Made by a program: the position numbers and the translations under genes
Notes under the pieces: model-generated
The model's input: only the letters and a program-made list of their open reading frames with translations
The model's database searches: none
Told to the model about the DNA's origin: nothing
Assembly: GCA_030426845.1 (NCBI GenBank)
Contig: JAUHXR010000051.1
Coordinates: 1 to 38,904, forward strand
Length of the DNA stretch: 38,904 bases
Reading direction: 5' to 3'
Source: Polyangia bacterium
GTDB taxonomy: Bacteria; Myxococcota_A; Polyangia; Polyangiales; Sandaracinaceae
Part shown: one piece after another, positions 4,158 through 32,812 of the stretch
How the letters are laid out: each line of letters begins with the position of its first letter
Position numbering within the stretch: the first letter of the stretch is position 1

Positions 4158-5828
4158 ATGGACGTCGTGAACAGCCACCCGGACGGGGTCGACCCGCTCA
4201 TCGGGCAGATCCTCGACGAGCGCTACCGCATCGAGGCGCTGCTCGGCGAGGGCGGGATCGGGCGCGTGTACAAGGCGCGCCACGCGACGCTGGGCAAGCT
4301 CGTCGCGCTCAAGGTGCTGCTCACCCGCTACGAGAACATCCCGGTGCTCAAGCAGCGGTTCCAGCGCGAGGCGGAGGCGCTCGCCGCGCTCAGCCACCCG
4401 AACATCGTGACCGTCACGGACTACGGCGTCTCGGGGACGATGGCCTACATCGTCATGGAGCTGCTCGAGGGCGAGGACCTCAACACGATCCTCGATCGCG
4501 GCGAGTCGCTCCCGCCGCGCCAGGCGCTCTCGATCGTCCGGCAGATGCTGCGCGCGCTCGCCTACGCCCACGAGCAAGGGCTCGTGCACCGTGACCTCAA
4601 GCCCCACAACGTCTTCGTGCGCTCGCTCGGCGGCGGCGACGTGCACGTCGAGGTCCTCGACTTCGGCCTCGCGCGCTTCGTGACCGACGCCTACAAGGAC
4701 GCGCCCAAGCTCACGGCGCAAGGTGCGTTGCTTGGCACGCCGGCCTATATGGCGCCCGAGCAGGCGCGTGGCGAGGAGGCGGACGCCCGGGCCGACGTCT
4801 ACGCGGCCGGCTGCGTGCTGTTCGAGGCGCTCACCGGGCGGCGGGTCTTCGAGGCGCGCGACCCGGGCGAGATCCTGCGCTCGCACCTGCTGAGCCCGCC
4901 GCCCAAGCTCACCCAGGCGGACCCCGGGCTCGAGGTCACGCCGGAGCTCGAGGCGCTGGTCGCGCGGGCGCTCGAGAAGGCCAAGGAGGCGCGGTTCGCG
5001 GACGCGGGCGCGATGCTCGAGGCGCTCAACGCGCTCGGCGAGGAGCCCGCGCGCCGCGTGGACGCGCGCCCCACGGCCCCTCGCCCGATGTCCGGCGTCG
5101 CGCCCACCCAGGCGCCGCGCACCGCCGCGACGGCCATCGCCTCGCCCTCGGCGCGCCAGCGGGCGAGCGGCGGCGCCGACGACGTGGTCATCCCGCAGCG
5201 GCGCACCCCGATGCTGCTGGCGGCGGGCTGCGGCGCGATCCTGTTGATGGGCGTCGGCGCGGGCGCGGTCTACTACGTCGCTGGCCCCCCCTCGGAGGAC
5301 CCGGCCCCGCCGCCTCCGCCCGCACAGCCCGAGATCCCGCCGCCGCCCGCGCCCACCCACCCCGCGGAGCCGACCGCCCCGGCGGCCGTCGACCCGTTCA
5401 GCCAGGAGGACGTGCCGCAGCTCCTGCAGGACATCTACGAAGTCATCGAGTCGCGCGGCGGCGGCGCGGTGACGCGTCGTCAGCAATCGTCGTTGACCTC
5501 GTTCCAGGCGGACAACCCCGGCGACCCGCGGCCCCACGTGCTCCTCGGCCACATCCACGTGGACGGCGGGCGCTACGAGCTCGGGCTGCGGGAGTACGAG
5601 GCCGCGGTCGATCGAGACGCGCGCGTCCGCGGCGATCCGCTCATGCTCCCGCGCGCGCTGCGGCTGGCGCGTCAGGAGGCGACCGCCGAGGCGGCCGCGG
5701 CCTTCGTGACCGAGACGTGGGGCCCGGACGCGCGCGGCGCGCTCGAGGCCGCGCTCGAAGAGCGGATGCCGCGGGCCGAGCGGGAGCGGCTCGAGGCGCT
5801 CGCGGGGGCGCTCGGCGCGCCCGAGTAG
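4158..5828 (+). CDS. Transmembrane eukaryotic-type Ser/Thr protein kinase
   Basis: 556 aa. The frame is open far upstream, but ATG 4158 is the sensible start because the promoter motif lies just before it and the kinase domain begins at residue 23. The PknB-like domain (about 23-290) has a Gly-rich loop GEGGIGRVYKA, Lys52 (ALKVLL), HRDLKPHN (144-151, catalytic Asp146), DFG (168-170) and GTPAYMAPE (193-201). The HRD arginine is present, so an RD kinase regulated at the activation loop is expected. A Pro/Ala/Ser-rich juxtamembrane segment (about 295-348) is followed by one membrane helix (about 351-375). A Pro-rich stalk (379-408) and a helical, TPR-like extracytoplasmic domain follow. The signal sensed is unknown. 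Confidence 0.93.
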   Translation: MDVVNSHPDGVDPLIGQILDERYRIEALLGEGGIGRVYKARHATLGKLVALKVLLTRYENIPVLKQRFQREAEALAALSHPNIVTVTDYGVSGTMAYIVMELLEGEDLNTILDRGESLPPRQALSIVRQMLRALAYAHEQGLVHRDLKPHNVFVRSLGGGDVHVEVLDFGLARFVTDAYKDAPKLTAQGALLGTPAYMAPEQARGEEADARADVYAAGCVLFEALTGRRVFEARDPGEILRSHLLSPPPKLTQADPGLEVTPELEALVARALEKAKEARFADAGAMLEALNALGEEPARRVDARPTAPRPMSGVAPTQAPRTAATAIASPSARQRASGGADDVVIPQRRTPMLLAAGCGAILLMGVGAGAVYYVAGPPSEDPAPPPPPAQPEIPPPPAPTHPAEPTAPAAVDPFSQEDVPQLLQDIYEVIESRGGGAVTRRQQSSLTSFQADNPGDPRPHVLLGHIHVDGGRYELGLREYEAAVDRDARVRGDPLMLPRALRLARQEATAEAAAAFVTETWGPDARGALEAALEERMPRAERERLEALAGALGAPE

Positions 5829-11331: not shown

Positions 11332-11478
11332 GAGCTGCGGTGTGCGCGAGATCGGGCGACGCTCGCCGCGAGGACGCTCACAGTCTCACTCGGAGGACCT
11401 CCGCGCACGGTCCACGAGAGCCGGTGTCACACCCCGCTCGGCGCAGTGCGACAGCTCTCAACTCCAGCCGGCGACCTC

Positions 11479-11487
11479 TGCTAGATC
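11479..11487 (+). promoter_or_regulatory. Extended -10 promoter motif of icmF
   Basis: TGC TAGATC lies 12 nt before ATG 11500, and a GAGG Shine-Dalgarno lies between at 11491-11494. The last hexamer base deviates from T. It shares the TGCTA word with four other starts in the window. Confidence 0.45.
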
Positions 11488-11499
11488 ACTGAGGAATCC

Positions 11500-14400
11500 A
11501 TGGCCGATGAAGACCGCTACCGCCTCGTGAACCCCGTCCGACTCGTCACCGCGGCCGCGCTCTTCGACGGCCACGACGCGTCGATCAACATCATGCGCCG
11601 GATCCTCCAGGCCTCCGGCGCGGAGGTGATCCACCTCGGCCACAACCGATCGGTAGAGGAGGTCGCGCTCGCCGCGGTCCAGGAGGACGCCCAGGGCATC
11701 GCCCTGACGAGCTACCAGGGCGGCCACGTCGAGTACTTCAAGTACCTGCGCCAGCGCCTCGACGAGCTCGGCGCGACCCACGTGCGGATCTTCGGCGGCG
11801 GCGGCGGCGTGATCGTCCAGCGCGAGATCGACGAGCTCCACGCCGCGGGCATCGACCGCATCTTCAGCCCCGAGGACGGCCGCAACATGGGCCTGCAGGG
11901 GATGATCAACGTCGTCCTCGAGGGCTGCGACACCTCGGTCGAGGAGCCGATCGCGGCCGGCGACGGCTGGCTCCCGCTGGCGCGCGCGATCAGCCGGGCC
12001 GAGCTCGGGCTCGAGCGGCCGACGGGCGAGGCCCCGCGCGTGCCCGTCATCGGCCTCACCGGCACGGGCGGGGCCGGCAAGAGCAGCCTCACCGACGAGC
12101 TGGTGCGGCGCTTCCTCGCGGACTTCCCGGACAAGCGCGTCGCGGTCCTCAGCATCGACCCGACCAAGCGCAAGACGGGCGGCGCGCTCCTCGGCGATCG
12201 CATCCGGATGAACAGCCTCCGCCACGGCGCGGGGCGCGCCTACATGCGCTCGCTCGCGACCCGCGGCTCGCGCTCGGAGGTCAGCGACGCGGCCAGGGAC
12301 GTGATCGGCGTGCTCAAGCGGCACGGCTTCGATCTCGTGCTCGTCGAGACCGCGGGCATCGGCCAGGGCGACTCCTCCATCACCGAGCTCGCCGATCTGA
12401 GCCTCTACGTGATGACCGCGGAGTACGGCGCGCCGAGCCAGCTCGAGAAGATCGAGATGCTCGACTACGCGGACTTCGTCGCGATCAACAAGTTCACGCG
12501 GCGCGGCAGCCTCGACGCGCTCCGCGACGTGCGCAAGCAGTACCAGCGCAACCACCAGGCCTTCGACGCGGACCCCACGACGCTGCCGGTCTTCGGCACG
12601 AGCGCGGCCCACTTCAACGATCGAGGCGTCAACGCGCTCTACGCGCACCTCGTCGCGCGCGTGAACCGGGACTTCGAGGTCGGCTGGCAGAGCCGCTACG
12701 AGGTCGACGCGACCCGCACCACCGACACCGCCGCGCAGATCATCGCGCCCGGGCGCGAGCGCTACCTCTCCGAGATCAGCGCGGCCTGCCGGGAGCACCG
12801 CGGGTGGGCCGAGGAGCAGGCGGAGGTCGCGGCCGACGTCGACGCGCTCGCGCGGACGATCGCGCTGCTCGGCGGTCCCGCGCACCCCGGCTTCGCGCCC
12901 CTCGGCCCGCTCGACGCGGGCAACGCGGCGGTCGGCGATCTGGCGCGCGAGCACGACGCGCGCCTCGAGCGGCTCCACCCCCGCTGCCGCGCGATCCTCG
13001 CGGGCTGGGACGACTGGAGCGCGGCCTACCGCGCGGACGAGTTCCGCTACCAGGTGCGCGGCCGTGAGATCGTGGTGCAGAGCCACCGCGAGTCCCTCAG
13101 CGAGACGCGCATCCCCAAGGTCGCGCCGCCGCGGCTCCTCGGCGCGGCGGACCGTCTGCGCTGGCGCCTGCTGGAGAACGTGCCGGGCGAGTTCCCGTAC
13201 ACGGCCGGCACCTTCCCGTTCAAGCGAACGGGCGAGGACCCGACCCGCATGTTCGCGGGCGAGGGGCCGGCGACGCGGACGAACGCGCGCTTCCACTACC
13301 TCGCGGACGGCCAGCCCGCCGCGCGGCTCTCGACCGCGTTCGACAGCATCACGCTCTACGGCGAGGACCCGGACTGGCGCCCGGACATCTACGGCAAGAT
13401 CGGCGAGAGCGGGGTCAGCGTCTTCACCGTCGAAGAGGCCGAGCACCTCTACGCGGGCTTCGATCTGTGCGACCCGAAGACGAGCGTCTCGATGACGATC
13501 AACGGGCCGGCGCCGACCGTCCTCGCGTTCTTCATGAACGCGGCCATCCGCCAGCGCTGCCGGCGGCTCCTCAAGGACGCGGGCCGGCTCGACATCAGCG
13601 ACGCCGAGGTCCTCCAGCCCGACGCGGCGCGGGGCGCGACGTGGGCACAGACGCGCGCGCTGCTCGAGCCGGGCGAGTACGACCGGTGCCGGGCCGAGGC
13701 GCTGAGGCTCGTCCGCGGGACCGTCCAGGCCGACATCCTCAAGGAGGATCAGGGCCAGAACACGTGCATCTTCAGCACGGAGTTCGCGCTGCGCGCGATG
13801 GGCGACGTCCAGCAGTTCTTCATCGACCACGACGTCCGCAACTTCTACAGCGTCTCGATCAGCGGCTACCACATCGCCGAGGCGGGGGCGAACCCGATCC
13901 ATCAGCTCGCCTACACGCTCGCCAACGGGTTCACCTACGTCGAGTACTACCGGGCGCGCGGCATGGACGTGAACCGCTTCGCGCCCAACCTGAGCTTCTT
14001 CTTCAGCAACGGGATGGACCCGGAGTACACGGTCATCGGCCGGGTCGCGCGGCGCATCTGGGCGGTCGCGATGGATCGCGTCTACGGCGCCGACGCACGC
14101 TCGCAGATGCTGAAGTACCACATCCAGACGAGCGGCCGTTCGCTCCACGCGATGGAGATCGAGTTCAACGACATCCGCACCACCCTCCAGGCGCTCCTCG
14201 CCACCTACGACAACGCGCAGAGCCTGCACACGAACGCCTACGACGAGGCGATCACGACCCCGACCGAGGAGTCGGTGCGCCGCGCGATGGCGATCCAGCT
14301 CATCATCAACAAGGAGTTCGGCCTGACGATGTGCGAGAACGCCACGCAGGGGAGCTTCGTGGTCGAGGAGCTGACCGACCTCGTCGAGGAGGCGGTGCTC

Positions 14401-14820
14401 GCGGAGTTCGACCGGCTCACCGAGCGGGGAGGCGTGCTCGGCGCGATGGAGCGTCAGTACCAGCGCGGGATGATCCAGGACGACTCGCTCAAGTACGAGC
14501 GGCTCAAGCACTCGGGCGAGCTGCCCATCGTGGGGGTGAACACGTTCCTGCCGCGCACCGCGGCCGAGGCGTCGACCCCGGCCGACGTGGCCCTCACCCG
14601 CGCGAGCAAGGAGGAGAAGGAGGGCTGCATCGCGCGGCTCGAGGCCTTCCACCGCGCGCACGACGCCGCCGGCACCGAAGCGCTCGCGTCGCTGCAGCGG
14701 GCCGCGCTGGCCGGCGAGAACCTCTTCGAGGCGCTCCTCCACGCCACCGAGCACTGCAGCCTCGGCCAGATCACGGGCGCCCTCTACGAGGTCGGCGGCG
14801 AGTACCGCCGCAACCTCTGA
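11500..14820 (+). CDS. icmF: Fused isobutyryl-CoA mutase (IcmF), adenosylcobalamin-dependent
   Basis: 1106 aa, close to known IcmF proteins (about 1090). IcmF interconverts isobutyryl-CoA and n-butyryl-CoA, with a built-in G-protein chaperone. Domains in order: B12-binding (about 10-145, DGHD with base-off ligand His25, then HLGHNRSVEEV); MeaB-like GTPase (about 180-430, P-loop GTGGAGKSS 188-196, ETAGIGQG from 283, NK 330-331); and a mutase TIM barrel (about 560-1106, with GTFPFKRTGEDPTRMF and SISGYHIAEAGANP). Gln753 in GQNTCIF occupies the position that is Arg in methylmalonyl-CoA mutase, which supports ICM specificity. Start ATG has a GAGG 5 nt upstream. It appears monocistronic and ends at a hairpin terminator. 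Confidence 0.95.
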   Translation: MADEDRYRLVNPVRLVTAAALFDGHDASINIMRRILQASGAEVIHLGHNRSVEEVALAAVQEDAQGIALTSYQGGHVEYFKYLRQRLDELGATHVRIFGGGGGVIVQREIDELHAAGIDRIFSPEDGRNMGLQGMINVVLEGCDTSVEEPIAAGDGWLPLARAISRAELGLERPTGEAPRVPVIGLTGTGGAGKSSLTDELVRRFLADFPDKRVAVLSIDPTKRKTGGALLGDRIRMNSLRHGAGRAYMRSLATRGSRSEVSDAARDVIGVLKRHGFDLVLVETAGIGQGDSSITELADLSLYVMTAEYGAPSQLEKIEMLDYADFVAINKFTRRGSLDALRDVRKQYQRNHQAFDADPTTLPVFGTSAAHFNDRGVNALYAHLVARVNRDFEVGWQSRYEVDATRTTDTAAQIIAPGRERYLSEISAACREHRGWAEEQAEVAADVDALARTIALLGGPAHPGFAPLGPLDAGNAAVGDLAREHDARLERLHPRCRAILAGWDDWSAAYRADEFRYQVRGREIVVQSHRESLSETRIPKVAPPRLLGAADRLRWRLLENVPGEFPYTAGTFPFKRTGEDPTRMFAGEGPATRTNARFHYLADGQPAARLSTAFDSITLYGEDPDWRPDIYGKIGESGVSVFTVEEAEHLYAGFDLCDPKTSVSMTINGPAPTVLAFFMNAAIRQRCRRLLKDAGRLDISDAEVLQPDAARGATWAQTRALLEPGEYDRCRAEALRLVRGTVQADILKEDQGQNTCIFSTEFALRAMGDVQQFFIDHDVRNFYSVSISGYHIAEAGANPIHQLAYTLANGFTYVEYYRARGMDVNRFAPNLSFFFSNGMDPEYTVIGRVARRIWAVAMDRVYGADARSQMLKYHIQTSGRSLHAMEIEFNDIRTTLQALLATYDNAQSLHTNAYDEAITTPTEESVRRAMAIQLIINKEFGLTMCENATQGSFVVEELTDLVEEAVLAEFDRLTERGGVLGAMERQYQRGMIQDDSLKYERLKHSGELPIVGVNTFLPRTAAEASTPADVALTRASKEEKEGCIARLEAFHRAHDAAGTEALASLQRAALAGENLFEALLHATEHCSLGQITGALYEVGGEYRRNL

Positions 14821-20261: not shown

Positions 20262-20543
20262 ATGTCCGAGTCCGAGACCGTGTTCTGCGTGAAGACCCAG
20301 CGAGAGGGCGAGAAGCTCGAGAGGCAGCCGTTCCCCAACGAGCTGGGCAAGCGGATCCACGAGAGCGTCTCGAAGGAGGGCTGGGCCGCCTGGATCGCGC
20401 ACTCGACGATGCTGATCAACGAGTTCCGGATCGACCTCAGCAGCAAGCAGGGCACCGAGTTCCTCCTCAAGCAGTGCGAGGAGTTCTTCTTCGGTGAGGG
20501 GTCCGAGCTTCCGCCCGACTTCAAGCCGGCCGACGAAGGGTGA
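20262..20543 (+). CDS. yggX: YggX family Fe(II)-trafficking/oxidative protection protein
   Basis: 93 aa, almost the family length of about 90. The signature TVFCVKTQREGEKLE with conserved Cys9, then PFPNELGKRIHESVSKEGW and TMLINEFRIDL, and FFFGEG near the C-terminus are typical of YggX. In enterobacteria YggX protects iron-sulfur clusters and is linked to repair of DNA damaged by oxidation. The protein is cytoplasmic. It is followed by a membrane MutS-like gene whose GTG overlaps this stop (GTGA), so the two are translationally coupled. The family is best known from gammaproteobacteria, so acquisition by transfer is possible, although codon use here matches the neighbours. Confidence 0.92.
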   Translation: MSESETVFCVKTQREGEKLERQPFPNELGKRIHESVSKEGWAAWIAHSTMLINEFRIDLSSKQGTEFLLKQCEEFFFGEGSELPPDFKPADEG

Positions 20544-22417
20544 GCGAGCCCGACGGCGGCGACGCGCCGCGAGGCCCCCTCGGCCAGCACCAAGAGCAGC
20601 GCGACGCGTTCGAGGCCGCGCGCGAGCGTCACGACGCGATCGACGCGCGCTTCGGGATGGCGGTCCTCGCGATCGCCGGGCTCGCCGTCGTGCTCCTCGG
20701 CTCGGGCCTGTTCGGTGGACCGCGCGAGAGCCTCTGGGGCGGGGCCGCGGTGGTGGTCCTGTTCTTCGTCGTCCGGGCCTTCCAGACGCGGACCATCAAC
20801 GCCCGCGCCGCGGCCGAGGTGCGGCGCGACATCCACGACCGGCACGTCAAGCGCATGACCGGTCGGCTCGCAGACCTGCCGCCCCCGGCCGCGATCATCC
20901 CGCCCGGCCACCCGTTCGCGTCGGACCTCGACCTCACCGGCCAGGCGTCGATCCAGCAGCGGCTCGACACGACCCACACCACCACCGGCGCCAAGACCCT
21001 CGCCGCGTGGCTCGGCTCACCCGCGACCCGCCCGGTCATCGAGAAGCGCCAGGCCGCGGTCGAGGAGCTCGCCCCCCGCGTCGAGCTGCGCCAGGAGCTC
21101 GAGGGCGCGGTGCTCGACACCGGCCGCGACCGCCTCGACGGCAACCCCTTCGTCGAGATCATGGGCAAGAAGGGCCCGCACGCCGAGCGCCCGTGGCTCC
21201 GGTGGGTCTGCCCGATCCTCCCCGTGATCACCGTGGGCCTCGGGCTCGCCGGGAGCGCGGGGATCGTGCCCGCGTGGGTGTTCCTCCTGCCGCTCGCCGT
21301 CCAGATCGGCATCGTCCGACAGACCGAGCCGCAGTCGCGCGAGATCTACGCGGCCTTCGGAGCCAAGAAGGGCTTCGTCGACGCCTTCGCGCGTCTGTTC
21401 CGGACGGTGGAGGAGGCGCGCTTCGAGGCTCCCCTCCTCGTCGACCTCCAGGAGCGGCTCGCGGTGGACGGGCTCGTGCCGAGCCAGCAGATGCGCCGGC
21501 TCGAGCGCTGGGTCTCCTGGTACGAGGTGCGCGAGTCGGGGATCGTCCACGTCGTCCTCAACCCGCTGCTGCTCTGGGACCTCAACTGCCTCATCGGCAT
21601 CGAGCGCTGGATGAAGAACGTCGGCCAGCGCTGCGGGATGTGGTTCGTCATCCTCGGCGAGATCGAGGCGCTCGCGAGCCTCGCGGTCCTGCGCCACCAG
21701 GAGCTCGGCGCGACGATGCCCGAGATCGTCGACCCGTCCGAGGGCCTGCACGCGGAGGGCATCGCCCACCCGCTGCTCCCGGTCGACACGCGGGTCGCCA
21801 ACGACGTCGCGCTCGAGGGGCCCGGCCGCTGCCTGATCGTCACCGGCTCCAACATGGCCGGCAAGAGCACGCTGCTGCGCGCGGTGGGCGTCAACGTGGC
21901 GCTCGCTCTCGCGGGTGGCCCGGTGCTCGCCGACGCGATGCGCGTCCCGCGCCTCCGCATCCGCGCCAGCATGCGCATCGCGGACTCCCTGCAGAGCGGC
22001 GCCAGCTACTTCCAGGCCGAGCTCGCGCGGCTCCGCACCGTGGTCCACCGCGCCGAGGAGGACCCGCCGATCCTGTTCCTCCTCGACGAGCTGCTCCGCG
22101 GCACCAACGCGCGGGCCCGCCACATCGGCGCGCGCGCGGTCGTCCAGCACCTCCTCGACCGCGGCGCGATGGGCTTCGTCGCGACCCACGACATCGCGCT
22201 CAGCAAGCTCGAGGACGAGCGCCCCGAGCAGGTCCACAACGTCCACTTCACTGACGTCATCGAGGACGGCGTGATGACCTTCGACTACCACCTCCGCGAG
22301 GGCGTGGTGAAGACCTCCAACGCGCTGCGGCTCCTGGCCGAGGTAGGCATCGACGTGCCGGACGACGGTCGCCTCGAGGACGGGGTCGCGCCGGCGCCCC
22401 AGGCGATCCGCAGCTGA
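20540..22417 (+). CDS. Membrane-associated MutS-like ATPase
   Basis: 625 aa from GTG 20540. Two hydrophobic segments (about 39-58 and 64-82) near the N-terminus and a second pair (about 222-258) make it membrane-bound, unlike canonical MutS, which lacks any. The C-terminal ATPase domain has Walker A TGSNMAGKST (435-444, Lys442) and Walker B FLLDELLRGTN (Asp516, Glu517). It also has the MutS-type SMRIADSLQSGASYFQAE and ATHDIAL motifs. There is no mismatch-recognition domain with the Phe-x-Glu motif and no clamp typical of MutS1. It belongs to the MutS-related families of unknown role. Coupling to yggX suggests a link to oxidative or DNA stress, but this is inference. Confidence 0.85.
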   Translation: MSEPDGGDAPRGPLGQHQEQRDAFEAARERHDAIDARFGMAVLAIAGLAVVLLGSGLFGGPRESLWGGAAVVVLFFVVRAFQTRTINARAAAEVRRDIHDRHVKRMTGRLADLPPPAAIIPPGHPFASDLDLTGQASIQQRLDTTHTTTGAKTLAAWLGSPATRPVIEKRQAAVEELAPRVELRQELEGAVLDTGRDRLDGNPFVEIMGKKGPHAERPWLRWVCPILPVITVGLGLAGSAGIVPAWVFLLPLAVQIGIVRQTEPQSREIYAAFGAKKGFVDAFARLFRTVEEARFEAPLLVDLQERLAVDGLVPSQQMRRLERWVSWYEVRESGIVHVVLNPLLLWDLNCLIGIERWMKNVGQRCGMWFVILGEIEALASLAVLRHQELGATMPEIVDPSEGLHAEGIAHPLLPVDTRVANDVALEGPGRCLIVTGSNMAGKSTLLRAVGVNVALALAGGPVLADAMRVPRLRIRASMRIADSLQSGASYFQAELARLRTVVHRAEEDPPILFLLDELLRGTNARARHIGARAVVQHLLDRGAMGFVATHDIALSKLEDERPEQVHNVHFTDVIEDGVMTFDYHLREGVVKTSNALRLLAEVGIDVPDDGRLEDGVAPAPQAIRS

Positions 22418-22477: not shown

Positions 22478-25400
22478 ATGGACTCGGATCGCGAATACCT
22501 GGACGGCCTCGCCCGCCTCCACCTCGTCGACGATCTCGAAGAGCGCCGCGCGACCTGGCGCCAGAGCATGGCCACGCTCGCGGCCGAGGCGGCCGAGCAG
22601 CGCCCCGTCCCCCTCGAGGGGTTGGATCCGGCCGAGGTGCTGCTGAGCACGCGCACCGCGATCGCGACCGGGCTGATCGAGGACCTCGACTTTCTCTCGG
22701 CCTCGGCCGCCGCGGGGGCGCTGTACGAGCTGGCGGCGATCCTCCCGACCGGCGAGGAGCGGCGCGAGCTCGGGCGGCGCGTCGCGAAGCGGCTCCACGA
22801 GGGCGACGCCCGTACGTTCGTGGCGCTCGCGACCCGGCTCGCGATGGGGTCCACGCGCGCGCTGAGCGGGCCCGGGGTGCGCGCCCGCGTCGCCCTCGCG
22901 CTCGACCTCCCCATCGGGAGCGGCACCCGGGCCGACGCGCTCGCCCTCGCGCTGATCTCCCGGCGCGAGCTCGCGCAGGACTGGCTCGTGACGCCGTCGA
23001 CCGGCTCGCTCCCCTCGCGCCGGCTCGCGGCCCGGCTCCTCGAGCGGGCGGCCCGCGAGGCCGCGCGGCGCTGCGATCAGGGCGACGACTCCGTGCTCGA
23101 GGTCTTCGCGCAGGAGAGCACCAAGGCCGCGTGGCGGCGGCTCCTCGGGGATCGCGAGCCGCTCGTCTGGCGGCACGTCGCGACCGCGCGCGGGCTCCTC
23201 AGCGAGCACTCGGCGCCGCTCGCCGACGCGATCGGCTCCGAGCTCGACCCGAGCCTCACCCCGACCGAGTGGCGGCGCGCGGCGACCTCCCTCGCCGCGT
23301 CGATCGCGGTGGCGCCGAGCAAGTCGCTCACCCGCGCGCTGCGCCTGCTCGAGGGCGAGCTGCCGATGCGCGACCGCGGCCTGCCCGGCGCGATGCTCCT
23401 GGGCCTGCCCCGCGCGGCCGAGGTCGAGCCCGAGGCGGCCGAGGAGCTCTGCACCGCGCTCGTCCGGGCCGGCGGCATCGACGCGGCCGAGGCCCTGCTC
23501 TCGCTGCGGCAAGAGCGGGTGGGCGGCGAGTTCGGCGCGTGGGCCTGCCAGATGGCGCGCGCCAAGCTGCGCGAGCGCGAGCTGATCGGCTCCGACGACG
23601 ACGGCGTCGCGGCGCTCGCCTCGATCCTCGACGAGGAGCTCCGACCCGAGGAGGAGCGCGACGCCGCGCCGAGCCTCCGCATGGTCCTCGAGGGCGCCCT
23701 CGCCGCCTTCGCGGAGGACGGCGCGCGGGCCGCCTACGGCCGCGCCTTCGGCGTGCTGCACCGGGTGGACGCGACGCTGCGGCGCCTCGAGTCCGCGTCG
23801 CTCGACACGCGCGAGGGGCGGCGCGAGTCCTACCACGCGCTGCGCGAGCTCGACTCCGTGCTCACCGAGACGAGCACGCTGGCCGATCTGCTCACCCTCG
23901 GCGCCAAGCCCGGGGTGGAGTCGCCCTCCCCGCTCGAGGCGTTCTTCGCGCGGCTGACCCGCTGGCTCCTCGCCCACGAGCGCGAGCCGATCCGGGAGCC
24001 CCGCCGCATCCACCACCGCGCGCTGCGCCTGCACCGCGTGCGGACGCTGCTGCACGTGGTCGACGCGGACGGCGGCTGGGGCGGCGGCGTCACCGACGAG
24101 CTGCGGGCGCGCCGCATCGAGACGGTCCGTGTGCTCCTGCGCCGCGTCCGCGACGACACCCCCTCGGTCCTCAAGCGGGTCGTCACCGCGTCGTGCGCGC
24201 GCGCCTCCGACGCGCTCCTGCGCGAGGAGGTCGGCGAGATCTCCGACGTCTTCCTCGCCGCCGTGCGCCACATCGAGACGCACGACGGGCTCGTGACGAT
24301 GGCCGAGGCGTCGATGGTCCCGGAGATGGTCGAGGTGTTCCGCGCCTACGCGAACCTCGTCACGCGCACCGAGACGACGACGCGCACCACCGCGACCCGC
24401 GGCCGCGCGAGCCTCGACGCCCTCCGCGCCTTGATCCGCAGCTTCCCCGCCGCGCTCTCCCCGCGCGTCGACGCGCTCCACGCGGCGCTGTTCGCGTTCG
24501 GTCGCGGGGTGGAGGGCGTGATGGCGGCGCGCTCGCTGGGCGAGCTCTGCGGCGAGGCCGACGGCGGGGCGTCGCGGATCGGTGAGCTCGAGCGCGCGAC
24601 TCGCCTCCTCGCCCGGCTGGTGGTCGGCGCGCGCCGGCGCCTCGGCGATCCACCCGACGATCTCGTCGGCGTCGGTGGCCCCGCCCTCCGCCTCCTCGAT
24701 CTCGCGGTCGAGCGCGCCTACCGCGGCGACCCCGGCCCCCTCGGCGAGGCGCTGGCGAGCGCGCTCGGCGCGCTCCACGAGGATCTGCCGACCCACCTCG
24801 CCGAGGTCGCGTCGGCCGCGCTGATCCGCAGCACGCGCCTGCCACGCGACGTCCCCGCCGACGCGCCGCCGCGCGACAGCTTCCTCCCGGCGGCGCCCAA
24901 GGAGAGCCCGCTGCCGCCGTGGCTGCCGCCCAGCCGGACGATCGGCGGCTTCTACGTCCTGCGGGCGCTCGGCTCGGGCGCGGTCGGCTCGGTGTTCGTC
25001 GCGCGGCGCTCCGAGCAGAAGAAGGTCGAGGACGCGCCGCGGTTCGCGCTCAAGGTCCCCGAGTACACCGGCGCGGCCGCGCGCACGCTCAGCGAGGCCG
25101 AGTTCTTGCGCCTCTTCCGCGAGGAGGCCGGCGCGCTCCTCGCCATCCCCGAGCACGAGCACCTCGCGCGCCTCGTGACCTTCGACGCGGGCGCGCAACC
25201 CAAGCCGATCCTCGTGATGGAGCTCGTCGAGGGGCCGACGCTCGAGCGCGTGGTGGAGACGGGCGCGCTCGACATCAACTCCACCTTCGCGATGCTCGAC
25301 GGCATCGCGGCCGGGCTCGAGGCGATGCACGCGGTGGGCGTCGGGCACCTCGACCTCAAGCCGTCCAACGTGATCGTCCGCGACCTCGACCCCCTGATGG

Positions 25401-25837
25401 GCGCCACGGGCAAGCCGGTGCTCGTCGACTTCGGCCTCGCCGGCCGCAACCTGCGCCCCGGGTGCGCGACCGCGAGCTACGGCGCGCCGGAGATCTGGGG
25501 CCTGACGCCCAAGGGGGTCAATCCCGAGCCGATGAGCGCGGACGTCTACGCGTTCGGCTGCCTCGCGTTCGAGGTGCTGACGGGGCGCGAGCTCGTCTTC
25601 GGCCCGAGCGAGGTCGCGATCATCACCTCCCACCTGTCGCACGACGGCGACTTCCAGGGGCTCGCCTGGCTCTCGCGCGACCCGATGCTCGCACCGATCG
25701 CCGACGTGATCGCGAGCGCCGTGCGGCAGGATCCACGAGCCCGCGCCTCGATCGCCGAGGTCCGCGCCCAGCTCGCGGAGCTCGGGCCGGGCCTGAGCGC
25801 GCGCCGCTGGCCGCTCAACATCGACGCGGCGGCCTGA
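22478..25837 (+). CDS. Large helical protein with a C-terminal non-RD Ser/Thr kinase domain
   Basis: 1119 aa. The first about 820 residues are Ala/Leu/Arg/Glu-rich and almost wholly helical, with no membrane segment and no motif that I recognise; HEAT- or TPR-like repeats are possible. The kinase domain starts at Ile822: G-loop LGSGAVGSVF (831-840), Lys859 (FALKV), HLDLKPSN (957-964, catalytic Asp959), DFG (984-986), GAPEIW and DVYAFGCLAFEVLTG. The Arg of HRD is Leu, so this is a non-RD kinase, probably not controlled by activation-loop phosphorylation. A kinase at the very C-terminus behind such a long domain reverses the usual PknB order. The next kinase gene starts 8 nt later, so the two are one operon. 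Confidence 0.87.
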   Translation: MDSDREYLDGLARLHLVDDLEERRATWRQSMATLAAEAAEQRPVPLEGLDPAEVLLSTRTAIATGLIEDLDFLSASAAAGALYELAAILPTGEERRELGRRVAKRLHEGDARTFVALATRLAMGSTRALSGPGVRARVALALDLPIGSGTRADALALALISRRELAQDWLVTPSTGSLPSRRLAARLLERAAREAARRCDQGDDSVLEVFAQESTKAAWRRLLGDREPLVWRHVATARGLLSEHSAPLADAIGSELDPSLTPTEWRRAATSLAASIAVAPSKSLTRALRLLEGELPMRDRGLPGAMLLGLPRAAEVEPEAAEELCTALVRAGGIDAAEALLSLRQERVGGEFGAWACQMARAKLRERELIGSDDDGVAALASILDEELRPEEERDAAPSLRMVLEGALAAFAEDGARAAYGRAFGVLHRVDATLRRLESASLDTREGRRESYHALRELDSVLTETSTLADLLTLGAKPGVESPSPLEAFFARLTRWLLAHEREPIREPRRIHHRALRLHRVRTLLHVVDADGGWGGGVTDELRARRIETVRVLLRRVRDDTPSVLKRVVTASCARASDALLREEVGEISDVFLAAVRHIETHDGLVTMAEASMVPEMVEVFRAYANLVTRTETTTRTTATRGRASLDALRALIRSFPAALSPRVDALHAALFAFGRGVEGVMAARSLGELCGEADGGASRIGELERATRLLARLVVGARRRLGDPPDDLVGVGGPALRLLDLAVERAYRGDPGPLGEALASALGALHEDLPTHLAEVASAALIRSTRLPRDVPADAPPRDSFLPAAPKESPLPPWLPPSRTIGGFYVLRALGSGAVGSVFVARRSEQKKVEDAPRFALKVPEYTGAAARTLSEAEFLRLFREEAGALLAIPEHEHLARLVTFDAGAQPKPILVMELVEGPTLERVVETGALDINSTFAMLDGIAAGLEAMHAVGVGHLDLKPSNVIVRDLDPLMGATGKPVLVDFGLAGRNLRPGCATASYGAPEIWGLTPKGVNPEPMSADVYAFGCLAFEVLTGRELVFGPSEVAIITSHLSHDGDFQGLAWLSRDPMLAPIADVIASAVRQDPRARASIAEVRAQLAELGPGLSARRWPLNIDAAA

Positions 25838-25845
25838 GCGCCGCC

Positions 25846-27714
25846 ATGCCGGCCACCTCGCGCGACCGCAAGACGTTCCGCGACACCCTCGAGGCCGCTC
25901 ACATCGATCCTCGCTCGCTCGAGCTGCGCGCCGACGGAACGGTGGGGCCGCCCGCCGCCGACGACGACGCGGCGGACCTGGCCGCGCTGCTGCCGCAGCT
26001 CGGGCTCGCGCCGGGCGGCGGCGACGTCCAGCTCGGCGAGCGGATCGGCGAGGGCGGCATGGGAGTGGTCCGCGCCGCGCGGCAGACGTCGCTCGGCCGC
26101 ACGGTCGCGGTGAAGGTGCTCCAGGACGACGCGCGCACCGCCAAGCGCGTGCGCGACTTCGTGCGTGAAGCCCGCGTCACGGGGCTCCTCGAGCACCCCA
26201 ACGTCGTGCCGATCCACGGGCTCGCGGCCGGCGACGACGGCAGCCCGTGGATGATCATGAAACGGGTGGTCGGCCAGAGCTGGCTCGAGCGGATCGAGCA
26301 GACCTTCGGCGCGCCCGATCACCTCGCGCCGCACCTCGAGGTCTTGCGCGCGGTGTGCCGCGCGGTCGAGGCCGCGCACGCGCAAGGGATCCTGCACCGC
26401 GACATCAAGCCGGACAACGTCCTCGTGGGCGACTTCGGCGAGGTGCTGGTCGTCGACTGGGGCCTCGCGATCGCGTTCGGTGACCCGCCCTTCGACGACA
26501 TGCCGCGCGTGACGGAGACCACCCTCGTCGTCGGCACACCGCGCTACATGGCGCCCGAGATGGCGGTCGGCGACGGACGGGCGCTCGGGCCGGCGACCGA
26601 CGTGTACCTCCTCGGCGCGACCCTGCACCACGTGCTCACCGGCGACTCGCGGCACCAGGGCGAGCACCTGATGGAGCTGCTTTACGAGGCCTACGCATCG
26701 GAGCCCTTCGCCTACGACGCGGCGGTGCCGGAGGAGCTCGCGCGCATCGCGAACCGTGCGTGCGCGCCGCTGCCGGAGGAGCGCTTCGAGGACGTCGCGG
26801 CGTTCCGGCGCGCGCTCGAGGAGTACGAGCGCCACGCGGGCTCGATCCAGCTCGCCGCCCAGGCGCGCGCCCGCCTGGACGCGGGGGACGAGGCCGATCT
26901 CACCGCGTGCCGCTTCGGCTTCGAGCAGGCGCTCGCGATGTGGTCGGACAACCCGGTCGCCGAAGCGGGCCTCGTCGACACGCTGGAGCGCGAGGCCACC
27001 CGGGCGCTCGATCAGGACGCCTTCGACCAGGCCCGGGGGCTGATCGCGCGGCTCGAGGAGGTCCACGCCGCAGTCCCTTCGACGCGACCGCAGGGCGCGG
27101 GTGAGCGTTCGCTGCGCGAGCGCCTCGCAGAGCTCTCCGCGCGCATGGAGCGCCGCCAGGCCCGGGTGGCCGAGCTCGAGCGCACCGCCCACGAGCAAGA
27201 CCTCGGGGTGGGGATCGAGGGTCGCCGCGCCTACGGCGTCGCCTTTGGCCTGATGTTCGGCCTCTACAACGTCGGCGCGGGCCTCGCGAGCGAGCTCGGC
27301 GTGTGGGCCCCGAGCCACCTCGGCTACGTGGTCGGCGCGTTCCTCGTCGCGGCGACGGTCGGCCTGGTAGCCCTCACGCGCCTGCCGCGGCTCACCCCCA
27401 ACCGCGCGGCCCGCCGGCTCCTCATCGGGCTCGCGGTGATCCTGAGCGCCCAGGTGCCGGTGTTCCTCGCGCTCGGCGCGTTCGACGTCGACATCGAGCG
27501 CTCGCTCGCGGTGAGCCTGCTGCAGCTCGGCGGGAGCTTCACGATCAAGACCCTCACGGTGGACGAGCGCATGATCTGGGTCGGCGCGCTCACCGCTCTG
27601 CTCGGAGGGCTCGGCCTGCTCGTGCCGGCGCTGAGCTGGTACCTCGTCGGCCTCGCCTACGCCGCGTTCTTCATCGGCGGCGCGTTCCTTCGCTTCGAGC
27701 CCACCGAGCCCTGA
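25846..27714 (+). CDS. DWG-type Ser/Thr kinase with C-terminal membrane domain
   Basis: 622 aa from ATG 25846, 8 nt after the previous stop. The kinase domain (about 61-330) has GEGGMGVVRAA (68-78), Lys90 (VAVKVL), HRDIKPDN (184-191), DWG in place of DFG (204-206) and GTPRYMAPE (230-238). DWG occurs in an uncharacterised subset of bacterial kinases often seen in Myxococcota and Planctomycetes. A helical segment follows (about 333-455), then five hydrophobic helices (about 463-483, 493-511, 523-545, 577-596, 599-616) form an unusual polytopic C-terminus. Most PknB-like kinases have one helix only. It lacks a clear extracytoplasmic sensor domain, so short loops or lipids may be sensed. Confidence 0.9.
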   Translation: MPATSRDRKTFRDTLEAAHIDPRSLELRADGTVGPPAADDDAADLAALLPQLGLAPGGGDVQLGERIGEGGMGVVRAARQTSLGRTVAVKVLQDDARTAKRVRDFVREARVTGLLEHPNVVPIHGLAAGDDGSPWMIMKRVVGQSWLERIEQTFGAPDHLAPHLEVLRAVCRAVEAAHAQGILHRDIKPDNVLVGDFGEVLVVDWGLAIAFGDPPFDDMPRVTETTLVVGTPRYMAPEMAVGDGRALGPATDVYLLGATLHHVLTGDSRHQGEHLMELLYEAYASEPFAYDAAVPEELARIANRACAPLPEERFEDVAAFRRALEEYERHAGSIQLAAQARARLDAGDEADLTACRFGFEQALAMWSDNPVAEAGLVDTLEREATRALDQDAFDQARGLIARLEEVHAAVPSTRPQGAGERSLRERLAELSARMERRQARVAELERTAHEQDLGVGIEGRRAYGVAFGLMFGLYNVGAGLASELGVWAPSHLGYVVGAFLVAATVGLVALTRLPRLTPNRAARRLLIGLAVILSAQVPVFLALGAFDVDIERSLAVSLLQLGGSFTIKTLTVDERMIWVGALTALLGGLGLLVPALSWYLVGLAYAAFFIGGAFLRFEPTEP

Positions 27715-27745: not shown

Positions 27746-29017
27746 TCAGGGCGTCGGGCTCGCGGCGCCCTCGTCGTCGGTCGGGAGCACTCCCCCGTGC
27801 GGAGACGCGCCCTGCGGAGACGCCCCGTGCGGAGACGCGCCGTGCGGAGGCGCCCCGTGCGGAGACGCGCCGTGCGGAGGCACGCCCGGCGGCGGCGCAT
27901 CGTCGGCGCTCCCCTCGGGCGCCGGGACCGCGTCGCCCTCGGCCGACTCGCCCTCGGCCGACTCGCCCTCGGCCGCGGATCCGTCGTCCGCCGCGGCGGT
28001 CCCCTCGGGCGCCGCCTCCGGGGTGCGATCGATCGGGTCGAGCCCGAGCACCGGCCGCGCGTCGTCCTCGAACGCCTGCGCGACGGAAGGCGGCACCCGC
28101 ACCCAGCCGCGCGTCGTCTCCGTGCGCGCGTAGTAGGCGGCCGGGCTCGCGTCCACGCGCGACAGCTCGAGCCGACCGAGCTCCTCGCCGCCCTCGCCCT
28201 CGAAGGTCAGGCGCATCACCGAGGTCGGGGCCGGCGCGTCGCCTTCGAGATCCGAGCCGGGCTCGCCCTCGAGGTAGCGCTGGACGCGGAGCCGCGGGTA
28301 GGCGCCGAGCCAGTTGCCGAACAGCTCGTTGCGCGTGTCGGGGCGCTCCGCGTCGACCCACTGCGCGCTCGCCTCGTCGAGGCGGTTGCGCTGAAGGAGT
28401 CGCTTGTGGCGCTCGAAGGCGTCGACCTCCACCGCCGCGATCTCGGTCCACTCGAAGGTGTGGAGCCGGCGCTCCATGAGGCGCAGCTCCGCCGACTCGA
28501 TCGGCTCAAGACGCTCGTCGCCGATCAGGTAGACCGCGTCGCCCGCGCGTGCGTAGCGGTCCCCCGAGCCGTAGGCCCGCCCGCCGATCGTGAAGGACTC
28601 CTCGCGGTCGCCGCAGCGCAGCGTCAGCGTGCCCTCCGGCTCATCGAGGCCGATCTCCGCGAGCTGCTCGGGCCCGAGCTCGCCGAGCGAGCGGCGCGCC
28701 CGCAGCGGCGCGAGCTGCTCGAGGACCTGGTCGATCGCGTCGGTCGCGGCGAAGCGCTCTCGGCTGCCCTCGCCGCGCTCGGGGTGGCGCTCGATCACCA
28801 CCCACGCGTCGAGCTCGTCGCCGTCGCGCGTCAGCTCGACGTGGATGTCTTTGTCGTCGAGCGCGAGGCTCACCGCGCTGAGGTCGCGCGGGCGGCACTC
28901 GAAGACCGTCACCTCGTCGACCGCCGCGCTCGTCCCCTCGTCGGTCCAGACGAGGTAGGCGAGGAGGAGCGACCCGAGCGCGAGGATCGCGTGGGCCATG
29001 ACGCTGCGCGCGTTCAC
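27746..29017 (-). CDS. DUF4340-like membrane-anchored protein of an ABC operon
   Basis: 423 aa from GTG 29017. It has a strong Shine-Dalgarno GAGGAAGAGGA and GTGA overlap with the upstream gene. One N-terminal membrane helix (about 7-25) is followed by a large extracytoplasmic region (about 30-340). Alternating short strands and helices contain repeated segments such as LTLRCGDREESFTIGGRAYG, YLIGDERLEPIESAELRLMERR and a second LGELELSRV half, matching the DUF4340 pattern. The tail (about 350-423) is low complexity with EGESA and ASPHG pentads. In several phyla DUF4340 proteins are encoded beside GldG-like proteins and ABC permeases, as here. The molecular role is unknown; the protein might form a periplasmic arm of the ABC complex. 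Confidence 0.75.
   Translation of the reverse strand: MNARSVMAHAILALGSLLLAYLVWTDEGTSAAVDEVTVFECRPRDLSAVSLALDDKDIHVELTRDGDELDAWVVIERHPERGEGSRERFAATDAIDQVLEQLAPLRARRSLGELGPEQLAEIGLDEPEGTLTLRCGDREESFTIGGRAYGSGDRYARAGDAVYLIGDERLEPIESAELRLMERRLHTFEWTEIAAVEVDAFERHKRLLQRNRLDEASAQWVDAERPDTRNELFGNWLGAYPRLRVQRYLEGEPGSDLEGDAPAPTSVMRLTFEGEGGEELGRLELSRVDASPAAYYARTETTRGWVRVPPSVAQAFEDDARPVLGLDPIDRTPEAAPEGTAAADDGSAAEGESAEGESAEGDAVPAPEGSADDAPPPGVPPHGASPHGAPPHGASPHGASPQGASPHGGVLPTDDEGAASPTP
27796..27885. repeat. Six-copy 15-nt tandem repeat
   Basis: Units such as CGTGCGGAGACGCGC at 27796, 27811, 27826, 27841, 27856 and 27871, with one to four differences. On the minus strand they encode five-residue units of the ASPHG/APPHG type in the DUF4340-like protein tail. 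A shorter run of a different 15-nt unit (EGESA) lies nearby at about 27932-27975. Confidence 0.9.
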
Positions 29018-31146
29018 TCCTCTTCCTCCTCGCGGGCCGGCTCCTCGGCCGGCTTCTCCGTCACCGCCTCCTTGGCGGGCGCCTGAGGCGCGCGGGGGCC
29101 TCGCGGGCGGCGCGAGCGTCCCCCGCCGCCGCGGGTCTGCAGCCACACCCCGAGCACGATGAGCGGGAGCGGCAGCCCGAACGCGCTCCCGTAGAACCAG
29201 ACCGCGTCGTCCTCGGCGCGGATCTCGATCGGGACGTCCTCCTCGGACTGCGTGGGCCCGAGGACGGTCTCCTCGCCGACGAGCCAGTTGACCGAGTCCA
29301 TGAGGACGAACGCGTTGCCGCGGTTGCCGATCCATCCGTCGGTGATGAAGTCGCCGTCGGCGACCACCACCGCGCGGCCCTCCTCGGAGCCCTCGGTCGG
29401 CACGGTGACGGCCGCGATCATGTTGAACGCCTCGGCCGGCTCGCTCGCGCCCTGCTCGTGGTCGCCGTCGACGTCGAGCCAGTAGCCGCTGGTCGCGCGC
29501 AGCGGGAACGTCACGCTCGCGCCCTCGAGCGCGCCCGCCTCGTCGCGGACCAGCGCGCCGCCGGCCATGAAGACGGTCGCGACCCGGCTGCGGAACCGGT
29601 TGGCGAGGGTGACCGTCGGGTGGGCGGAGTAGGTGTTCGAGTAGACGATTCGGCGGTTCGCCGGCGGCGCGCCGCGGCGCACGAAGCTCGTCTCGCTGTG
29701 GAGCACGCCGTCGCGGAGCCGCACGCCGAGGCGCGAGAGCAAAGGCCCGAGCCCGTGGTCGACGTCCGGATCCACGAAGACGAGCAGGCGCCCGCCCTCG
29801 CCGACGTAGCGCGCGAGGCTCTCCGCCTCTTCGGGGAGGAACGGCTCGCGCGGGCCGATGACCGCCACCGCCGGCGCCCCCTCGGGCACGCGGTTGCCGA
29901 GGCCCTGGGCCGGGCCGAGGTCGCGGTGCTGGATGTTCGCGCGCGAGAGCGCGTCGATGAGCTCGCCGAGGCGCTGGTCCGACGGGTCGCCCTCGAGCGG
30001 GGTCGCCGCGCGCTCGCGGTGCCCCGTCGTCAGGTAGAGCTCGCGCGGCCGCGTCGTGAGCTGCGCGAAGTGCTGCTGGAACAGGCCGTCGAGCGTCCGC
30101 AGCCGCCGCCGCGCCGTGTCGAGCTCGAGGCCGACCTCGAAGCTCTCCGCCTGCTGCCCCTCACCCTCACCGCGCGTGAGCAGGACGAAGCCGTTGCCGC
30201 GCACCCGGTGCTCGCGCGCGAGCTCAGCCGCGAGCGCGTGGTCGTGCTGCACCACCGTGAGCGCGTCGCTCGCCTCGTCCAGCGTCTCGAAGTAGGGCCG
30301 CAGCGCGTCGAGGACCTCGTTGACGTCCGGGTAGAACAGGTGGACCTGCACCGGCTCGTCGACGTCGCGCACCATCCGCAGCGTCGTCTCGCTCGGCTCG
30401 GTCGTGCGGAAGTAGCTGAGGTCGCGCTTCACGTCGCGCTCGTTGGCCACGTAGCTGAGCGCGGCGACCGTCACGAGGCTGAGGCCGATCGCGAGCCCGG
30501 TGCTCGCCGCGCTGGCGACGCGCCGCAGCTCGATCGCCTCCTCCACCGGCATCCGCCGGTAGGCCATCTCCATGTAGAGGAGCGCCGAGAGCGAGACCAC
30601 GAGCACGCTCGGGAACGCGACCTTGAACACCCCGCCCGCGCGCTCGGAGCCCTCGAGCCCAAGCGCCTCGAGCCCGGCGTCCGTGCCGAGCGCGTAGAGG
30701 AGGAGCGACAGGAACACGCCGCCGGTGGCGACCGCGAGCCACGTCTCCACCGTGCGCTGCTCTCCCTTGGCCCGGGAGAGCGACCAGCCGCGCCAGCCGG
30801 CCGCGAGCGCGAGCGTGGTGAGCGCGAGGCCGCGCCAGACGGTGATCTGCTCGCTCGCGTCGCCCACCACGCGCTCGCTGATGAACAGCAGGATCAGACC
30901 GAGCGGCAGGATCAGACCGACCCAGAAGCCGCGCCGGCCCTCGACCTGCCCCTCGCCACCCGCGACCGTCTCGAACGCCGCGAAGCCGATCGCGCCGAGC
31001 GCGATCCCGATGGCCGCGCCGATCAACCCGAAGGTCAGCCCGAGCGCCACCGCGAGCGCGATCCAGCCGAGCCCGAGCCCCAGCCACCGGACCAGGCGCC
31101 CGCCCGCCTTCGGCTCCGCGCGGTTTGGGTCCGGGGTCATCGCCAT
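29014..31146 (-). CDS. GldG-like ABC transporter auxiliary protein with polytopic N-terminus
   Basis: 710 aa from ATG 31146. GGAGAG lies 6 nt upstream of this ATG; a second ATG at 31140 overlaps the upstream stop but is 12 nt from the Shine-Dalgarno. About seven hydrophobic helices lie in residues 20-234, followed by a large domain (about 240-650). It contains VQVHLFYPDVNEVLDALRPY and YLTTGHRE, with segments such as AVAVIGPREPFLPEEAESL and RLLVFVDPDVDHG, matching the GldG/ABC_transp_aux pattern. One C-terminal helix precedes a charged tail. Canonical GldG has a single N-terminal helix, so the extra membrane part is unusual. Overlaps of 4-10 nt on both sides show co-expression with the ABC permease and DUF4340 genes. 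Confidence 0.82.
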   Translation of the reverse strand: MAMTPDPNRAEPKAGGRLVRWLGLGLGWIALAVALGLTFGLIGAAIGIALGAIGFAAFETVAGGEGQVEGRRGFWVGLILPLGLILLFISERVVGDASEQITVWRGLALTTLALAAGWRGWSLSRAKGEQRTVETWLAVATGGVFLSLLLYALGTDAGLEALGLEGSERAGGVFKVAFPSVLVVSLSALLYMEMAYRRMPVEEAIELRRVASAASTGLAIGLSLVTVAALSYVANERDVKRDLSYFRTTEPSETTLRMVRDVDEPVQVHLFYPDVNEVLDALRPYFETLDEASDALTVVQHDHALAAELAREHRVRGNGFVLLTRGEGEGQQAESFEVGLELDTARRRLRTLDGLFQQHFAQLTTRPRELYLTTGHRERAATPLEGDPSDQRLGELIDALSRANIQHRDLGPAQGLGNRVPEGAPAVAVIGPREPFLPEEAESLARYVGEGGRLLVFVDPDVDHGLGPLLSRLGVRLRDGVLHSETSFVRRGAPPANRRIVYSNTYSAHPTVTLANRFRSRVATVFMAGGALVRDEAGALEGASVTFPLRATSGYWLDVDGDHEQGASEPAEAFNMIAAVTVPTEGSEEGRAVVVADGDFITDGWIGNRGNAFVLMDSVNWLVGEETVLGPTQSEEDVPIEIRAEDDAVWFYGSAFGLPLPLIVLGVWLQTRGGGGRSRRPRGPRAPQAPAKEAVTEKPAEEPAREEEEE

Positions 31147-31862
31147 CGCTGGCTCTCCAGGACCTTGGTCGCCGCGAGGAGCGAGAAGTAGATGACGCCG
31201 CCAAAGAACACGAGGTCGCTGAGCTGCACGAGCCCGTTCTGGAACGGGGTGAAGTGGCTCGTGTGGAGCGCGAGGTAGCCGAGGAGCTCGCGGAACGGCG
31301 GGTCCACCGTCTGGCTCAGCGGGTAGCAGAGCTCGAGGAGGACCACGATGGCGCCGGTGAGCACCACCGCGAGGAACGGGTTCTTGGTGAGCGAGGACGC
31401 GAGCGCGCCCAGGGCGAGGGTCGTCGCGCCGAGGAGGATCATCCCGATGTAGCCGGCCGCGATGTGGCCACCGCTGACCTTGCCGTTCAGGAGGATCAGC
31501 GCGGGCAGGTACAGCGAGCAGAGCGTCACGAGGCTCATGAAGAGCAGCGTCGCGAGGTACTTGCCGACGACGATCTCGCCCTCGCGGATCGGCGAGGTGA
31601 ACAGGAGCACGTCCGTCCCGGCGGCGCGCTCCTCCGCGAGCAGGCGCATCGAGAAGAGGACGCCGCCGATCATGGTGACCGCGCCGCCGAAGTAGAAGAA
31701 GATGCGGAGCACCTCGGAGCTGACCTGCCGCTCGTCGCCGATCGCGAAGGCGTTGAACAGGAGCCCGTCGAGGAGCAGCAGGACGGCCGCGATGTAGTAG
31801 CCGCTCGGGCGGCGCAGGTAGCCGCCGAGCTCGCGCATCACGAGGAGCCCGATGTTCCTCAC
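31137..31862 (-). CDS. ABC-2 permease (GldF-like)
   Basis: 241 aa from GTG 31862, overlapping the upstream ATPase stop as GTGA. The protein begins MRNIGLLVMRELGGYLRRP, a typical ABC-2 amphipathic N-terminus, and has about six hydrophobic helices. The central motif LLAEERAAGTDVLLFTSPIRE matches the conserved RxxGTxxxLLxxPixx motif of ABC-2 permeases, including GldF and NosY. It would form the membrane pore with the ATPase encoded upstream. The GldG-like gene overlaps its 3' end. No substrate can be assigned; homologous systems in Bacteroidetes are tied to gliding and secretion, but that role is not proven for this phylum. Confidence 0.88.
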   Translation of the reverse strand: MRNIGLLVMRELGGYLRRPSGYYIAAVLLLLDGLLFNAFAIGDERQVSSEVLRIFFYFGGAVTMIGGVLFSMRLLAEERAAGTDVLLFTSPIREGEIVVGKYLATLLFMSLVTLCSLYLPALILLNGKVSGGHIAAGYIGMILLGATTLALGALASSLTKNPFLAVVLTGAIVVLLELCYPLSQTVDPPFRELLGYLALHTSHFTPFQNGLVQLSDLVFFGGVIYFSLLAATKVLESQRWR

Positions 31863-32812
31863 GCGTCCTCCCCGCTCATCTGCACGAAGGCGTCCTCGAG
31901 CGAGCTCGAGGTGCGCGCGAGGGTGAGCAGCTCGAGGTCGGCCTCGACGACGCGCCGGGCGATCGCGCCGCGCGGGTCCTCGGCGGCCCGCACCTGGGCG
32001 AAGGTGACCCCGCGGCTCGCGGTGAGCTCGACGATCTCGAGGCCGTCGATCGCGAGCGCCGCGCGGACGGCGTCCTCCGCCCCGCGGACCTCGACCTTGA
32101 CGAGGTGACTGACCCGGGCGCCCTTGTCGGCCGACGCGCGCGCCGAGAGCTGCGAGAGCAGCTCCTCCTCCGAGCCCATCCCGACGATGCGCCCCTCGCG
32201 GAGCATGAGCAGCCGGTCGCAGGTGCGCTCGACCTCCGAGAGGATGTGCGAGCTGAGGAGGATCGTGTGCTCGCCGCGCAGGCCGCGGATGAGCTCGCGC
32301 ATCTCGATGATCTGCACCGGGTCGAGGCCCTGGATGGGCTCGTCGAGGATGAGCAGCGCGGGCCGGTGGATGATCGCCTGGGCGATCCCGACGCGCTGCT
32401 TGTACCCGTGGCTGAGCGTCTCGATCGTCTGGTCCTGGACCTCGACGAGGCCGGCGCGCTCGAGCACCTCGGGGAGCCGCTTGGCGACCTCGCCGCGGCT
32501 CATCCGTCGGAGCTGCCCCGCGAAGCGCAGGAACTCCGCGACCCGCATCTCCGGGTAGAGCGGCGGCGTGTCCGGCAGGTAGCCGATGAGCTTGCGGATC
32601 TCGTGCGGGCTCTCCTCGGCGTCGAAGCCGCCGATCGTGATGCGCCCGCTGGTCGGGAGCGAGAGGCAGCTCAGGAGCCGAAGCGTCGTCGTCTTGCCCG
32701 CGCCGTTGAGGCCCAGAAAGCCGATGCACTCGCCCTCCTCGATCGTGAAATCGAGGCCCTCGACGGCTGCGCTCCGCCCGTAGAACTTCGAGACCTTGTC
32801 GACGCTGATCAC
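31859..32812 (-). CDS. ABC transporter ATPase (GldA-like)
   Basis: 317 aa. The frame extends further upstream; I chose GTG 32812 because GGCGGGG lies 9 nt before it and the ABC fold starts at once (ISVDKVSKFYG). Visible motifs: Walker A GLNGAGKTTT, Q-loop region LPDTPPLYPEM, signature LSHGYKQRVGIAQAI with the S-x-G form LSHG, Walker B LLILDEP and switch His in LLSSHILSEVE. A C-terminal extension of about 80 residues follows, as in GldA, NosF and similar ABC-2 ATPases. It is the first gene of the four-gene unit and would power the permease encoded 4 nt downstream. A TTG at 32821 is a less likely start. Confidence 0.92.
   Translation of the reverse strand: MISVDKVSKFYGRSAAVEGLDFTIEEGECIGFLGLNGAGKTTTLRLLSCLSLPTSGRITIGGFDAEESPHEIRKLIGYLPDTPPLYPEMRVAEFLRFAGQLRRMSRGEVAKRLPEVLERAGLVEVQDQTIETLSHGYKQRVGIAQAIIHRPALLILDEPIQGLDPVQIIEMRELIRGLRGEHTILLSSHILSEVERTCDRLLMLREGRIVGMGSEEELLSQLSARASADKGARVSHLVKVEVRGAEDAVRAALAIDGLEIVELTASRGVTFAQVRAAEDPRGAIARRVVEADLELLTLARTSSSLEDAFVQMSGEDA

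Follow-up and report, generated by a model that had tools for sequence, protein, structure and literature searches.

A conserved family of Hanks-type kinases with a predicted N-terminal alpha-solenoid in Polyangia, and its neighbour gene at one locus

Bacterial kinases of the PknB type place the kinase domain at the N-terminus, followed by one transmembrane (TM) segment, and have an HRD motif and a phosphorylated loop. Kinases number in the hundreds in myxobacterial genomes; most are lineage-specific duplicates, and the important ones are hard to pick out among them. Our literature search found no description of a kinase from bacteria whose N-terminus is an alpha-solenoid or of the HEAT kind. 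We have analysed a 38,904-nt contig of a Sandaracinaceae genome (the window), in which two kinase genes follow one another on the same strand. An earlier note on this DNA, made from the sequence alone, had read the two as an operon of unusual architectures and a possible two-step phosphorelay at the membrane. Our main finding is instead about gene 1, which represents a so far undescribed, conserved solenoid-kinase family.

Layout of the locus

Gene 1 runs from an ATG at 22478 to a stop at 25835-25837 (+) and encodes a protein of 1119 aa (P0001); gene 2 runs from an ATG at 25846 to a stop at 27714 (+) and encodes 622 aa (P0002). The gap between the gene 1 stop and the gene 2 start is 8 nt, the spacing that had been claimed. 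Gene 1 is a real gene, because its coding GC3 is 0.97 and it is conserved in 67 orthologs, at about 39-70% identity. The features discussed here are as follows.

20262..20543 (+): YggX-like small protein, upstream; identity read from sequence
20540..22417 (+): MutS-like ATPase with N-terminal TM helices, upstream of gene 1; identity read from sequence
22478..24913 (+): gene 1 N-terminal domain, aa 1-812; AlphaFold2, fold search, Pfam and PDB sequence nulls, conservation profile
24941..25777 (+): gene 1 C-terminal Hanks-type kinase domain, aa 822-1100; Pfam PF00069 and invariance in 68 sequences
25427..25492 (+): gene 1 activation segment, aa 984-1005, DFGLAGRNLRPGCATASYGAPE; 68-sequence alignment, with other kinases of the genome compared
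25846..27714 (+): gene 2, with an RD kinase (aa 62-330), a helical linker and about five C-terminal TM segments

A third Ser/Thr kinase domain, with HRD and DFG, lies in the same 39-kb window at 4224-5000 (+). The window also holds a 1106-aa frame at 11500-14820 (+) whose start resembles the cobalamin-binding, IcmF-type fused acyl-CoA mutases, a putative assignment read by eye.

The gene 1 family: solenoid, kinase and distribution

With 68 sequences as input, AlphaFold2 modelled residues 1-812 of the gene 1 protein as about 41 helices and no strand, at a mean pLDDT of 92.6 and a pTM of 0.92. The full-length model reached a pTM of 0.79, as compared to 0.92 for the solenoid alone, so that the placement of the two parts with respect to each other is less certain. 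By sequence, these residues of the window protein matched no Pfam family at E 0.1, and a search of 41 family members against Pfam gave no consistent N-terminal family, only isolated weak matches that included one LRV_2 at 0.025. Together, searches of Pfam, NCBIfam, PADLOC and PDB sequences returned nothing besides the kinase; the best PDB profile match to the N-terminus, ZnO7 at E 0.027, was not accepted as a relative. Because no HEAT, ARM or TPR repeat is recognisable by sequence profile, we describe the domain as solenoid-like and do not file it under the HEAT or ARM families. Fold searches with Foldseek and VIA-align found CAND1, karyopherins, SF3b, cohesin SA2 and the solenoids of ATM and mTOR as PDB neighbours, all of them generic matches whose TM scores are low and whose rmsd is large. 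The VIA Z values of many unrelated solenoids are tied at about 9-11, which for helical proteins is near or under the background, and no specific fold family stands out. Residues 1-812 are thus best described as a confidently predicted HEAT/ARM-like alpha-solenoid without a specific family.

These results sustain much of what had been proposed for gene 1: a long helical N-terminus (812 residues as modelled) ahead of a C-terminal HLD kinase, in an unusual architecture, conserved as a family, whose helical domain matches no known sequence family. The structure prediction and profile search suggested at the time as a check returned no well-known domain by sequence, and a solenoid model at high confidence. 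Conservation across the 68 sequences is highest at aa 81-275 of the solenoid, and of the 84 positions in the N-terminal domain that are nearly invariant, 20 are arginine. A search of the window genome gave no paralog of this domain, and hydropathy gave no TM segment anywhere in the gene 1 protein.

The kinase domain matches PF00069 at residues 827-1096 with an E-value of 7e-23 (81.7 bits, against a curated cut-off of 31.7). It carries HLDLKPSN at 957, DFG at 984 and APE, and its catalytic set is complete (K, alpha-C E, HxDxKPxN, DFG and APE). The residues K859, E883, H957, L958, D959, K961, N964, D984-F-G, C996, T998 and E1005 do not vary among the 68 sequences. Leu958 precedes the catalytic Asp in every one of them, placing the family among the non-RD kinases, and this identity in all 68 marks HLD as a fixed family trait and not as decay. 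Two tandem gene 2-family kinases at another locus (L216, 3254-6918) combine HLD with DWG, so that HLD arises outside the gene 1 family too. The departures from HRD and DFG that had been pointed out in the two genes, HLD and DWG, are present but are not defects, with gene 1 keeping every catalytic residue. From this complete, invariant set, gene 1 is most likely catalytically competent. If the kinase fold served for partner binding only, gene 1 would be a pseudokinase scaffold, a reading in keeping with the replacement of HRD by HLD and with the low in vitro activity that is common among non-RD kinases (PMC8463890); yet relaxed pseudokinases rarely keep their ATP-binding and catalytic residues, all of which are invariant here, and we consider this explanation improbable.

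The activation segment is 22 residues long in all 68 sequences, and no Ser or Thr is conserved ahead of Cys996 within it. By comparison, 39 other kinases of the window genome, a sample that favours the strongest Pfam matches, all have HRD and nearly all have longer activation segments. Non-RD kinases are thought to be able to do without activation-loop phosphorylation, although some plant members remain under its control (PMC8463890). Cys996 stands two positions ahead of the conserved P+1-loop Thr and corresponds to Cys199 of PKA, a kinase that is inhibited when this residue is oxidised (PMC8146537). By analogy, gene 1 might be a redox switch that reversible oxidation of Cys996 turns off, perhaps in connection with the YggX-like oxidative-damage gene. 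The cysteine is found in 68 of 68 family members yet at the same position in just one of the 24 other kinases of the genome that could be resolved. In the host family, a YggX-like gene is also located upstream; at each of the seven loci examined from that family it precedes the MutS-like gene. Against this, the YggX-like adjacency is limited to that one family, and an invariant cysteine may instead be structural or aid binding of the substrate P+1 residue; we judge the switch unlikely.

Of 96 genomes, comprising that of the window and 95 from relatives, 79 contained the N-terminal 801 residues, mostly in full-length frames. When 371 genomes from the phylum were searched with a profile, 127 proved to be carriers: 114 belong to the same order, which contributed 132 genomes to the sample, and the other 13 to two further families of the class. 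The rest of the phylum sample gave no match. Of the 18 absences within the order, 10 fall in a single family. The gene is mostly single-copy, with a few second copies (e.g. in G017 and G046), and it is retained even where the genome measures 3-4 Mb and yields only 27-43 kinase matches. Among the named carriers are Sorangium cellulosum So ce26 and So0157-2, Minicystis rosea and Polyangium fumosum; many Sandaracinaceae and Polyangiaceae MAGs carry it as well. A scan of genome contigs with the single gene 1 protein as query gave no relatives, while an alignment-based scan gave 146, of which 80 were kept, their records being myxobacterial, deltaproteobacterial or unclassified bacteria. Since it is nearly universal and mostly single-copy in the order, and is kept in genomes with about 30 kinases, gene 1 is a candidate core regulator. 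Its mode of control would be unusual, combining a solenoid scaffold with a catalytic loop that lacks the HRD arginine and an activation segment that has an invariant cysteine.

Gene 2 and the neighbourhood of gene 1

Pfam places the gene 2 kinase domain at residues 62-277, with the motifs HRDIKPDN and VVDWG, and hydropathy places five TM segments after it, near 465, 495, 525, 577 and 599, bearing out the description of a DWG kinase followed by about five membrane helices. DWG is found in 20 of the 21 gene 2 relatives sampled, and all 21 have four to six C-terminal TM segments, mostly five or six. The best relatives (39-44% identity) are found on contigs separate from those that carry a gene 1 ortholog, and the window genome has further members of the family on other contigs. 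The family to which gene 2 belongs is a multicopy one of DWG kinases with a polytopic C-terminus, and gene 2 is unremarkable within it; of the claim that both architectures are unusual, the part concerning gene 1 stands, whereas the DWG motif and polytopic tail of gene 2 are the norm for its family.

A gene 2 relative adjoins gene 1 in none of the 40 orthologous neighbourhoods; at two of the loci (L079 and L081), a more distant kinase lies divergently upstream. A close relative is found at locus L067 (genome G005), where gene 1 is 71% identical to that of the window and the order YggX-like, MutS-like, gene 1, then DUF4340-like and ABC genes is kept. The DNA alignment between the two covers window positions 22489-25840 and 28044-32811, the gene 2 interval having no counterpart, and the interval downstream of gene 1 measures 839 bp in L067 versus 2203 bp in the window. 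The presence of gene 2 beside gene 1 is therefore particular to this lineage, through gain here or loss in the relative. At the same junction L067 holds a different, 219-codon frame with a hydrophobic stretch (11334-11990, -), and the junction thus seems to be a variable site. The DUF4340-like protein next to it in the window (27746-28100, -) has a C-terminal tail with tandem repeats (GASPHGAPPHGASPHG...), and its L067 equivalent has a different low-complexity tail.

Adjacent kinases are to be expected in this genome, given that its 9.4 Mb yield at least 151 kinase matches. Kinases make up roughly 2% of its genes and, if it has about 8,500 genes, we estimate that one or two adjacent co-directional kinase pairs would occur by chance. 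A study of the Sorangium phosphatome warns against reading gene proximity in such kinase-rich genomes (PMC2887360). On synteny, then, we reject the two-gene operon, given the 0 of 40 neighbourhoods and the relative with the same flanks and no gene 2; the co-occurrence check that had been put forward for the pair likewise shows that the pairing is not conserved in related genomes. As the pair is absent from all the other neighbourhoods examined, one with conserved flanks among them, the two-step relay is not supported either, and the term phosphorelay belongs to His-Asp systems, whereas two Ser/Thr kinases would form a cascade. A dedicated membrane cascade, in which sensing falls to the polytopic gene 2 protein and relaying to the solenoid kinase, or vice versa, could draw on the 8-nt spacing, shared strand and probable co-transcription in the window genome, but it is hard to reconcile with the missing pair, the separate contigs of the best gene 2 relatives and the likelihood of chance adjacency, and we regard it as very improbable.

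A better candidate for functional linkage with gene 1 than gene 2 is the MutS-like gene, which lies directly upstream and co-oriented in 15 of 41 loci, in several families. Apart from this partial association and the YggX-like gene in one family, the loci revealed no order-wide conserved neighbourhood that would point to the function of gene 1.

Proposed role and comparison with known kinases

In our preferred reading, to which we give a probability of roughly 0.6, gene 1 encodes an active, soluble (cytosolic) non-RD Hanks-type Ser/Thr kinase directed by its solenoid, with gene 2 as an unrelated chance neighbour. The kinase domain would be carried at the C-terminus of an 800-residue alpha-solenoid that, judging by its predicted fold, may bind a partner or substrate, probably through the conserved, arginine-rich N-terminal third (aa 81-275), and such binding would aim or switch the kinase. 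Because the HRD arginine is missing, the activation segment is short and there is no conserved phosphosite, loop phosphorylation should be dispensable and kinase activity independent of it; the invariant Cys996 could, by analogy with PKA, add thiol control. Gene 2, from a separate multicopy RD-kinase family, would have become the neighbour of gene 1 in this lineage.

Among known systems, gene 1 shares the catalytic fold and motifs (PF00069) of the bacterial Hanks-type, PknB-like kinases, but differs from the PknB type in its C-terminal kinase, its 812-aa N-terminal solenoid, its lack of a TM segment, its HLD motif and its short, Cys-bearing activation segment. Gene 2, by contrast, agrees in architecture, length and DWG motif with most relatives in the multicopy family that has five or six C-terminal TM helices in the same order. 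Kinase-domain profiles of the PADLOC defence kinases PD-T4-6 and MAD6 also gave matches; these span the kinase domain only, NCBIfam MAD6 reaches a score of 77 where the cut-off is 460, and a defence role was rejected. The general plan of a long N-terminal alpha-solenoid followed by a C-terminal kinase recalls the PIKKs (mTOR, ATM and DNA-PK), yet the gene 1 kinase is of the PF00069 Hanks type and not PI3K-like, which places it outside that family; the fold match is generic to solenoids, and the likeness is an analogy in how the proteins may work. A bolder and rather doubtful extension would make gene 1 the bacterial version of the solenoid-plus-kinase design: a regulatory kinase of the Polyangia core, present in single copy, in which the 800-residue scaffold would recognise a cellular complex that is itself conserved and would gate a kinase domain independent of phosphorylation and sensitive to thiols.
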